DNA of 62,516 nt from Syntrophomonadaceae bacterium (GTDB taxonomy: Bacteria; Bacillota; Syntrophomonadia; Syntrophomonadales; Syntrophomonadaceae), in assembly GCA_012522955.1 (NCBI GenBank), contig JAAYJK010000075.1:1-62516 (forward strand). Reading direction: 5' to 3'. The notes under the pieces were generated by a model. That model saw only the letters and a list, made by a program, of their open reading frames with translations. It had not been told where the DNA came from and made no database searches. Shown here piece after piece: positions 24,084 through 28,017 of this stretch. The number at the start of each line of letters is the position of its first letter. Position 1 is the first letter of the stretch. A program made the position numbers and the translations under genes.

Positions 24084-25292
24084 TCAAACAGAAGAGCTGA
24101 AACTATCCTGTCCCCCATGGGAATCCAAGGAGGGAATGAAACGAGCTACCACCAGGCTAAGGAGTCCTAGTAGACCAGCAGCGATAAATACTGCCTGATA
24201 GCCTAAGCTGGCCCATAATAATCCGCCCAGGAAGGGAACGGTCATGGATACTCCATGATCCAGAGTGATGCCCATTGAAATGCTGGGGGCCAGATCATCA
24301 GTAGAGTTCACAATGCGGTTTAAGTAGGTAACCCGAGCTATGGTGATGGCAAACAACACCTGGTCGGCTACAAAACAGGACATAATGATGATCAGGGCTA
24401 TGGAGTCTGCAAACAGCTGCTGGGCAAAGGCATAAAAGAGGCACAAGGAAGTTACCAAGAGAGCATCAATGGATAATACCTTCCGCTCTCCCCAGACATC
24501 GATGGCCCGACCCAAGAGAGGACGGAAAACCAGGCCAATAATGGTGGCTATGATGCCCAGCATGGCAAAAGTTTCTACTCCACAGTGAAAGATTTTGATT
24601 AGCACCCAGGGTGCAAAGGTTAAAAATACCTGCTTGCGGGCCCCGAAAATCATATTGATTAAATAAAAGAGACCGTATTGGCGTTTAAATATGAGCTTGG
24701 GCTTGGCTTTGGAAACTGGTTCCGGTTTTATAAGGTACAGCAAGAGGGCCGCTATAAAGGTAAAGGCTCCAGCCAGGCCAAATATGACTGGAAAAGAAAA
24801 GTTGCCATAGGATACCCCAAAGTATACCAGAGTCATGCCCAGCAAAAGCCCCAAGGCTTCCAAGGCCCCTAGATCTCCCATTAGCTTGCCTTCCCGGCCT
24901 TTGTCGGCCAGGCGTAAAGCTATAGAGGATTTTACTACCATGTATACATGAGCTCCGGTACTCCACGTCAGCATCCATAAGACTACCATGATCATATTGG
25001 GAGCCAAAAAACCCTGTCCCCACAGGGATAAGGCCAACAAGAGGGCCATAAGGGCAGCGATGCGGGTATCAGCCAGAAACATGAACAAGGAAAAAATAAA
25101 AGCACATAAGAACCCGGGCAGTTCCCGGGGAAATTCCAGGGCTCCTCGGGCTACTTCATCGATATTATGAACCTGGGCCAGGTAATTGTTAAAAGAAGGC
25201 TCGTAAAGGCCTGAGTACAGGCCAAATAAGCAGCTAGCAGCTGCAAAAAGAAACAGGGGACTTAATATTGGCCGTTGCTTAAGAGAGGACAT
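24084..25292 (-). CDS. Major facilitator superfamily transporter
   Basis: 402 residues with about twelve hydrophobic helices, the usual size for the family. A central cytoplasmic loop near residue 195 (KPEPVSKAKPKLIFKRQYG) separates two six-helix halves, and GLVFRPLLGRAIDVWGERKV contains the loop motif seen after helix 8. The start has AAGGAGC upstream. It stands alone between two repeat-containing gaps. Substrate unknown. Confidence 0.82.
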   Translation of the reverse strand: MSSLKQRPILSPLFLFAAASCLFGLYSGLYEPSFNNYLAQVHNIDEVARGALEFPRELPGFLCAFIFSLFMFLADTRIAALMALLLALSLWGQGFLAPNMIMVVLWMLTWSTGAHVYMVVKSSIALRLADKGREGKLMGDLGALEALGLLLGMTLVYFGVSYGNFSFPVIFGLAGAFTFIAALLLYLIKPEPVSKAKPKLIFKRQYGLFYLINMIFGARKQVFLTFAPWVLIKIFHCGVETFAMLGIIATIIGLVFRPLLGRAIDVWGERKVLSIDALLVTSLCLFYAFAQQLFADSIALIIIMSCFVADQVLFAITIARVTYLNRIVNSTDDLAPSISMGITLDHGVSMTVPFLGGLLWASLGYQAVFIAAGLLGLLSLVVARFIPSLDSHGGQDSFSSSV

Positions 25293-25569: not shown

Positions 25570-26922
25570 TCAAACTCCGCCCATGACAGATCGGAACTGG
25601 TTGATAGCGATTACAACCGGATCGGTTAGGATACTAAAGGCAGGGGAGTAAGCCAGATCCAGGTCATATAAATCTTCGATTTTTGATCCGGTATGGAGGG
25701 CGGTGGCAATAGTGTCTATGCGTTTGCCGGCACCTGCATAGCCGACAATCTGTCCACCCAAGAGGCGGTGGCTGGTTTTTTCTACGATTAATTTAACATA
25801 AATACTACCAGAGTCAGGAAGATAAGGAGCTCGGGTGACGGACTTTATAGTCTGGCTTATGTACTCAATGCCTAGGATTTGGCATTCGTGCTCAGATAAG
25901 CCGGTACGGGCCACTTCCAGCTCCATTATTCTGCTTATGCCAGTCCCCAGTACTCCTTTTAAGGTGGTGTTGCCGCCAGCTGCATTTTCCCCTGCCACTC
26001 GGCCCTGCTTGTTGGCAGTGGTACCCATAGGGATATATACTTCCTGTCCCGAGACTAAATGTTTTACAGTGGCACAGTCACCAGCAGCATAAATATCCGG
26101 CTGACTGGTTTCCATTCGCTCATTGACTCGAATTGCCCCGCCTGCTCCCAGTGCGATGCCGGTCTGGGCCGCAATTCCGCTGTTAGGGAGCACACCCATG
26201 GCAAGTATTACTATATCAGCTGGGAAAATACCCTTCCCAGCTACCACTTCCTTAACCTGCTCAGGGCCTTTGAAGGCGGTAACGGATGAATCAGTTAAAA
26301 TTTCAATGCCTTTTGATTGCATGTAGCTGTGAACGTGATCTGCCAGGTCAGGATCCATATTGGGTAAAATATGGGGAGCTTTTTCGATTATCTTTACCTG
26401 ACATCCATACAGCAAGAGGTTTTCAACCATCTCCAGGCCGATATACCCGGCTCCCACTACTACTGCGTGCCGGGGCTGATAATTCTGGATATAGGCCTTT
26501 ATAGCCTGACTATGCTCAATGTTGCGGAGGGGGAAAATCCCTTTTAACCCCAGTCCTTCCACCGAAGGAAGCAAAGGTCGAGCCCCAGTAGCAATTATCA
26601 AACAGTCATATTCTTCGGTCCACAAATCCTGGCTGGACTGATTTTCAAATAGGATTTGTTTTTTCTGGCTATTGATCTCAACTGCTTTGCTCTGGGTTAT
26701 GATAGGAGTACCCTGCCGGGTAAAGTCCTCCGGGGTTCTTCTGATCAGCTTTTCATGTGATTTGATTATATCTCCGATATAATAGGGCAGGCCTCAGGCT
26801 GAATAGGAAATATATAAACCTTCGGTAAAGACCTTGATATCTAATTGAGGGTTTATCCGACGGGCCTTGGCCGCTGCACTCATTCCGGCTGCTACCCCAC
26901 CAATAATTCTCAAACGTTTCAA
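25570..26922 (-). CDS. CoA-disulfide reductase-like flavoprotein, probable selenoprotein (Sec43)
   Basis: A 450-residue reading frame of the pyridine-nucleotide-disulfide oxidoreductase family (CoA-disulfide reductase, NADH oxidase, polysulfide reductase branch), read through one in-frame TGA at 26796-26794. TTG at 26922 has GAGGAGG 7 bases upstream. From there the TGA is codon 43, within YSA-U-GLPYYIGD. The family has catalytic Cys43 here (ACGLPY). Either side is intact: FAD motif GGVAAGMSAAAKARR, NAD motif VVVGAGYIGLEM, AAGDCATV, and the C-terminal DLAYSPAFSILTDP. A hairpin with a GGA loop follows 18 bases after TGA, as expected for a bacterial SECIS. Automatic annotation would give a truncated gene starting near 26625. 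The enzyme probably reduces CoA disulfide, CoA persulfide or a polysulfide with NAD(P)H. Confidence 0.85.
26765..26783 (-). promoter_or_regulatory. SECIS-like hairpin in the selenoprotein mRNA
   Basis: On the minus strand ATTATATC-GGA-GATATAAT forms a perfect 8-bp stem with a 3-base loop whose first two bases are G. The loop begins 18 bases after the UGA. Bacterial SECIS elements bound by SelB lie immediately 3' of UGA with a small loop that has G in its first positions. Caution: the same bases encode YYIGDII, conserved in this family, so part of the pairing may be fortuitous. Confidence 0.75.
26794..26796 (-). other. In-frame UGA, proposed selenocysteine codon 43
   Basis: Codons read GCC TGA GGC, between YSA and GLPYYIG. 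It is the only stop in a 451-codon frame and replaces the catalytic cysteine exactly. Random decay would be unlikely to hit that codon alone while leaving the other 449 sense codons open. Confidence 0.85.
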
Positions 26923-27081
26923 TGTTCGTCCTCCTCACAAAGTATGCCACTGCTAAATATTGTTATTGATAGTAAATTTTCTGCATAAGATAGAATAAAT
27001 CCTATCCTGATTAAAAAAAAACCAAGTACCAATAGTATTCTAGTTGGAGTCGGGTATTTATGTACTCAATACGGCTAGTCC

Positions 27082-27168: not shown

Positions 27169-28017
27169 TTGGCTAAGATTAAATTGTACGCAGATAATTG
27201 TTGCGATTTGGAGCAGGACTTATTGCAAAAACTTGGAATAAGCTCCTTGGCTTTGAAGGTTAATATAAACGGCAAGAGTTACCGAGACCGGGTGGATTTA
27301 TCTCCCAGCCAATTTTATGAACTGATTAAGGAACCTGGGATTATGCCTACTACTTCTCAAATCAATCCCGCTGAATTTGAGGCAGAATTTAGAAAGATTC
27401 TGGGAGAAGGAGATAATGAAATAATATATATAGCTTTTTCTTCCAGTTTAAGCGGGACCTACCAGTCGGCCTGTATGGCTAGGGATATGGTGGATGCGGA
27501 ACACATTACGGTCATTGACTCTCAAAGTGCATCATTGGGGTATGGCTTGACTTTGATTAGGGCGGCCCAGGCAGTAGCCCGGGGTTTGAACAAGGAGCAG
27601 GTTATACAGGAAATAATGGATAATATAAATAGGATGGAGCATGTTTTTATTGTAGGAGACTTTGAAATGCTGAAAAGAGGTGGCAGAGTAAGCGCTGCCT
27701 CAGCCTTTATCGGGTCCTTGTTAAATATAAAGGTTATCGCTGAAATAAAAGACGGTAAAATTAACCCAGTGGAGAAAGTCAAGGGGTTGAAAAAAGCCAA
27801 AAAGAGACTGCTGGAAATAATGGGCCAGCGGGGTGATCATTTGCCCCAGCAGTTAATGGGCATATCCCATTCCAATGATTATGAGGGAGCCCTGAAAGTT
27901 AAAGATATGATAGCCGAACAATTTGGCTGTGAGAACTTTATCATATCGGAAATCGGAGCCGTAATAGGAGCTCATGTTGGAGCTGGTACCTACTCGGTCT
28001 TTTTCCTGGGCCACTAG
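27169..28017 (+). CDS. DegV-family fatty-acid-binding protein
   Basis: A 282-residue DegV protein. It has the N-terminal IKLYADNCCDL in place of the common TDS motif, TTSQINPAEF, the lipid-carboxylate loop SSSLSGTYQSA, and EMLKRGGRVS. Family members bind long-chain fatty acids and include FakB, which presents fatty acids to the kinase FakA; no FakA partner is visible here. The start is TTG with GAGAGGAGGGA upstream and a sigma-A promoter at 27082. Confidence 0.88.
   Translation: MAKIKLYADNCCDLEQDLLQKLGISSLALKVNINGKSYRDRVDLSPSQFYELIKEPGIMPTTSQINPAEFEAEFRKILGEGDNEIIYIAFSSSLSGTYQSACMARDMVDAEHITVIDSQSASLGYGLTLIRAAQAVARGLNKEQVIQEIMDNINRMEHVFIVGDFEMLKRGGRVSAASAFIGSLLNIKVIAEIKDGKINPVEKVKGLKKAKKRLLEIMGQRGDHLPQQLMGISHSNDYEGALKVKDMIAEQFGCENFIISEIGAVIGAHVGAGTYSVFFLGH

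Follow-up and report, generated by a model that had tools for sequence, protein, structure and literature searches.

Does the single in-frame TGA of a flavoenzyme gene in this Syntrophomonadaceae bacterium encode selenocysteine (Sec), and by what route did selenium come to stand where the relatives of the enzyme carry cysteine? The gene lies on the minus strand at 25570–26922 of the window, by which we mean the whole stretch of DNA analysed (62,516 nt); these coordinates had been given correctly, without a strand, in a preliminary description. We consider it highly probable, from the gene, its genome and its relatives together, that this is a functional selenoprotein gene of the CoA-disulfide reductase (CoADR)/NADH oxidase family of FAD enzymes, in which UGA43 would be read as selenocysteine by SelB and tRNA-Sec under the direction of a downstream hairpin.

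Reading frame and catalytic codon

Translated with TGA as U (Sec), the frame starts at a TTG codon, runs from 26922 to 25570 and terminates with TGA at 25572–25570. It contains only one internal TGA, at codon 43 (26796–26794, minus strand), which is followed by 407 sense codons. The preliminary description had located this TGA correctly within a frame of 451 codons, but codon 451 is the stop, so that the protein comprises 450 residues including Sec. The strong Shine-Dalgarno sequence that had been described, GAGGAGG (26930–26936, minus strand), is found 7 nt upstream of TTG, and GAGGAGG also precedes the orthologue in the four other species of the genus (L033–L036). At this locus, an ordinary ORF finder starts at an internal TTG and calls no more than 351 aa, so that the full enzyme is easily overlooked in this organism.

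Profile searches matched the read-through protein to TIGR03385 (E = 1.3e-130) and PRK09564 (E = 1.9e-132) over residues 3–441, spanning the TGA, and detected the FAD/NAD domains Pyr_redox_2, Pyr_redox and Pyr_redox_dim, in agreement with the earlier claim of a frame that is intact on both sides and retains its FAD and NAD motifs. Alignment to chains of known structure (CoADR, CoA-persulfide reductase and NADH oxidase) puts the TGA at the position of their only catalytic cysteine (SYSA-U-GLPYYIG vs C-GLPYYIG), where the preliminary description had placed it, and the gene reads U-G-L-P in the U-G-x-P motif. As far as sequence comparison goes, alignment to solved CoADRs thus already fixes the position of residue 43. 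The cysteine-dependent CoA-disulfide, persulfide and polysulfide reductases 3icr, 3cgb, 4fx9/5l1n and 8a56 are homologous over their full length and differ by carrying, in the alignments obtained, Cys at the Sec position. Several of them are fused to a rhodanese domain; at 450 aa, the window protein is too short to hold such a domain. Its residues Tyr366 and Tyr425 are matched in the alignment by Tyr403 and Tyr461 of 3cgb, which we take to be Tyr367 and Tyr425 of B. anthracis CoADR, with a catalytic role. The same genome encodes a further CoADR relative without an internal stop (L002, G000:C136:141466-142773), 37% identical, whose open frame of 569 codons leaves room for a domain fused at the C-terminus, for instance rhodanese.

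The equivalog sense of CoA-disulfide reductase (EC 1.8.1.14) calls for a score above the TIGR03385 or PRK09564 cut-off. The scores obtained here lie below both curated cut-offs (436 vs 578.8 for TIGR03385, 442 vs 458 for PRK09564), and the activity name is therefore provisional, with the substrate left unfixed by homology. The enzyme group consists of single-cysteine FAD reductases that use tightly bound CoA, and substrate preference among them follows the shape of a channel, which is hard to read from sequence (PMC6026696). Selenium is very probably built into the reactive site of this CoA-disulfide-reductase-like enzyme. The product would be an FAD-dependent pyridine nucleotide reductase with a single redox-active residue, Sec replacing Cys. 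If its cycle resembles that of the Cys enzymes, NADH or NADPH would reduce FAD, and FAD would in turn reduce a selenosulfide formed by Sec43 with tightly bound CoA; the selenolate and CoA thiolate released in this step would together reduce CoA disulfide, CoA persulfide or polysulfide. A putative gain in reactivity toward CoA-disulfide or persulfide through selenium is plausible.

Downstream hairpin and selenocysteine machinery

A SECIS-type hairpin (26783–26765, minus strand) begins 10 nt after UGA and overlaps the YYIGDII codons. It has the form ATTATATC-GGA-GATATAAT, in which the 5′ arm (26783–26776) and the 3′ arm (26772–26765) form 8 uninterrupted pairs around the apical loop GGA (26775–26773); stem length, loop and distance from UGA had been noticed beforehand. 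The bacterial SECIS (bSECIS) model specifies a loop of 3–9 nt with G within the first two positions, a stem of 4–16 bp, a distance of 16–37 nt between UGA and loop and a minimum free energy (MFE) of −7.5 kcal/mol or lower (PMC13188914). The GGA loop, the 8-bp stem and the UGA-to-loop distance of 18 nt all lie within these ranges, but the MFE amounts to only −3.8 kcal/mol in 42 nt and reaches −9.8 only when the folded stretch is extended to 80 nt. The bacterial SECIS form attributed to the hairpin therefore holds for stem, loop and spacing, but not for the energy threshold. The hairpin of the window is A/T-rich and weak; the corresponding region in a second species of the genus (L033 in genome G019) has an MFE of −7.8. 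An Rfam search at the locus gave no match.

Since the YYIGDII codons are predisposed to pair, with ~7% of the synonymous codings of the same peptide forming the hairpin, the hairpin alone is weak evidence; and because one Cys gene (L077) forms it as well, we ruled it out as stand-alone proof. Comparison between genes is more informative. Among genes encoding PYYIGD[IV][IV], all 8 pairs are formed in 11 of 11 TGA genes vs 1 of 21 non-TGA genes (Fisher p = 9e-8, an index rather than a probability, as the rows are related). Two pairs change on both sides among the TGA genes, in which 100% of cells are paired vs 15–66% in slid controls. The pairing probability amounts to 0.94 and 0.98 in the two TGA-bearing species of the genus and to 0.0 in three congeners with TGC. 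It is this comparative evidence, not the hairpin alone, that makes the case strong.

The genes selA, selB, selC and selD, which the Sec family requires of a host genome, are all present, so that an objection from their absence, raised in the preliminary description, fails. The adjacent selA and selB, tRNA-Sec and selD are located on one contig of the same genome. We detected selB with 377 bits in a profile search and tRNA-Sec with 71 bits (gathering score 47), and recognised selA beside selB from its own sequence. The selD gene itself carries an in-frame TGA (Sec-type), as do two formate dehydrogenase genes that score over their family cut-off, and selB was found in all five genomes of the genus. 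That UGA is instead read as Trp or Cys, through a suppressor or an altered genetic code, is compatible with the sequence of the gene taken by itself, but such a reading would have to operate in a gene whose own terminal stop is UGA and in a genome that holds tRNA-Sec, selA, selB and Sec-type selD and fdhA; we regard it as very improbable. A scan of the window for other Sec genes yielded ORFs extended through TGA. At the contig end (positions 50–120 of the window) lies a short tandem repeat based on 'tgaccaac'.

Sec and Cys forms at one locus

The gene is flanked by a divergent gene for a DegV family protein (27169–28017, plus strand; TIGR00762) and downstream by an ORF for an MFS-type membrane protein (24084–25292, minus strand), a type judged from its sequence, without an NCBIfam name; both served as syntenic markers. 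All five species of the genus share the order DegV – CoADR gene – MFS, and Syntrophomonas wolfei (L040/L041/L059) has it too. The second species, G019, carries the same TGA and hairpin in an otherwise uninterrupted frame with 75% identity. The three further congeners have TGC at codon 43 and lack the hairpin. The S. wolfei orthologue occupies the same locus with 56% identity to the window gene, but has TGT at the catalytic codon and an incomplete hairpin. The common neighbours, including those in S. wolfei, indicate that different lineages have Cys or Sec at one and the same locus. The motif with TGA occurs in 2 of the 398 genomes searched in the phylum, both in this genus, and a reversed control pattern gave 0 matches. 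L045 (G051), a relative that is otherwise intact, has TCG (Ser) at the codon for residue 43; this enzyme may lack activity or act in another way, or the codon may be an error.

Purifying selection acts on both sides of the TGA, as the pN/pS between the two TGA-bearing species is 0.17 before and 0.26 after it. This bears on the possibility that the gene is a pseudogene or has lost its function at codon 43, with translation perhaps resuming further on to give a shorter protein, a view that the 351-aa ORF reported by the ORF finder would favour. Besides the low pN/pS, (i) the internal stop is single in 450 codons and falls on the sole residue where Sec makes sense, (ii) the strong Shine-Dalgarno sequence is placed at the full-length start and (iii) a restart at 26625 would lose the N-terminal FAD-binding segment together with the catalytic residue. 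Nor does any relative in the genus show decay at other positions, a check that had been suggested in advance. Inactivation can accordingly be given very little credence. An error of sequencing or assembly would need to alter a single base (TGC to TGA), and the window is a contig from a draft of 137. This possibility is already close to refuted by G019, a separate genome that has TGA at the same codon despite 25% protein divergence, with the TGA-associated hairpin in both TGA genomes and in none of the TGC congeners; we attach next to no probability to it, and the corresponding check named in the preliminary description thus came out in favour of the TGA.

Known selenoprotein family and separate origins

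The preliminary description had regarded the gene as a probable new selenoprotein. This claim is wrong, as Sec-containing CoADR is already present in published selenoprotein lists: a Sec 'NADH oxidase'/CoA-disulfide reductase of Geobacter metallireducens in the list of Zhang 2006 (PMC1794560), the CoA-disulfide reductase/NADH oxidase family (PRK09564) in the GOS survey of 2008 (PMC2398784), the same family in a 2022 review (PMC9312934), and the family with motif UGxP, TIGR03385 and WP_011365774.1 in a 2026 review (PMC13188914). Both reviews credit the family to Kryukov & Gladyshev 2004, which is reference 12 of the 2022 review. Compared by its published description, the type member WP_011365774.1 belongs to the same family (TIGR03385/PRK09564) and has Sec at the same catalytic residue within UGxP, but the window gene comes from another lineage, the Syntrophomonadaceae. 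We found no biochemical study of the Sec form of CoADR in the literature, so the description 'uncharacterised at the bench' may still hold; and among open-licence full texts on selenoproteins and Syntrophomonas, no title or abstract names the gene in Syntrophomonadaceae. What is new is the Syntrophomonadaceae member, of separate origin by tree and AU test, with its hairpin in the YYIGDII codons as in a distant Sec clade. The family was thus known before, and the genus appears, from sequence comparisons, to have undergone a recent and independent switch from sulfur to selenium.

Of 395 genomes searched in the phylum around the deltaproteobacterial locus L078, 24 contain the TGA pattern. The query could be aligned to each of these 24 loci; for L093 and L099, the alignment covers only parts outside the TGA region. 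The Sec genes of this phylum form two groups, a UG[IM]P/UAMP clade and a UPxP clade. In the UG[IM]P clade around L078, the hairpin after UGA is in a different register from that of the window gene. The UPxP clade (U-P-x-P-Y-Y-I-G-D: L091, L102–L108 and L114) shares with the window gene the same catalytic TGA and an 8-bp hairpin with a GGN loop in the same codons, but has UP rather than UG after Sec, is only 34–39% identical and branches distantly. Because the two clades are distant, the common hairpin points to convergence on the YYIGD codons and not to recent descent.

In the tree, the two Sec genes of the genus form a starred pair nested in a clade of the genus that bears Cys and is starred too, and no fewer than three switches between Cys and Sec are needed. 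AU tests rejected a single clade of all Sec genes (p-AU = 5.5e-5) as well as a topology that joins the Sec genes of Syntrophomonadaceae to the UG[IM]P clade (p-AU = 6.8e-5). Sec may have been gained at the base of the genus and then lost twice. Most likely, the Sec form in the genus arose once, from the resident Cys gene; TGC or TGT would have changed to TGA, and codon changes within YYIGDII, synonymous as well as conservative, would have built the hairpin. The simplest reading comprises one gain in the ancestor of G000 (the genome of the window) and G019, a separate history of the other Sec clades and one reversal in Syntrophaceae/Smithella.

The Cys genes of Syntrophaceae/Smithella (L073, L074, L076, L079 and L081) are nested in the Sec clade that contains L091, with one to three hairpin pairs broken. 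On the sequences, this branch is likely to represent one Sec-to-Cys reversal, after which the hairpin decayed. The metagenome-assembled genome HGW-Deltaproteobacteria-13 carries the gene in both forms, with Sec (L078/L091) and with Cys (L081). In prokaryotes, the documented cases of Sec replaced by Cys concern mainly FdhA and SelD (PMC13188914, 2026 review), beside which the Syntrophaceae/Smithella branch would make a third family. As a whole, we consider it probable that CoADR was recently converted in place from Cys to Sec in one genus, with a SECIS hairpin derived from YYIGD[IV][IV] codons in convergence with a distant Sec clade, and that Sec reverted to Cys with hairpin decay in Syntrophaceae/Smithella. 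It is this evolutionary comparison, more than the class of enzyme, that makes the gene interesting: with Sec or Cys at one locus across five genomes of the genus, the gain and loss of SECIS and Sec can be followed in a clean natural experiment. In three loci (L105, L109 and L110), the frame is open for ~170–340 codons before TGA vs ~45 expected, possibly through N-terminal fusions.
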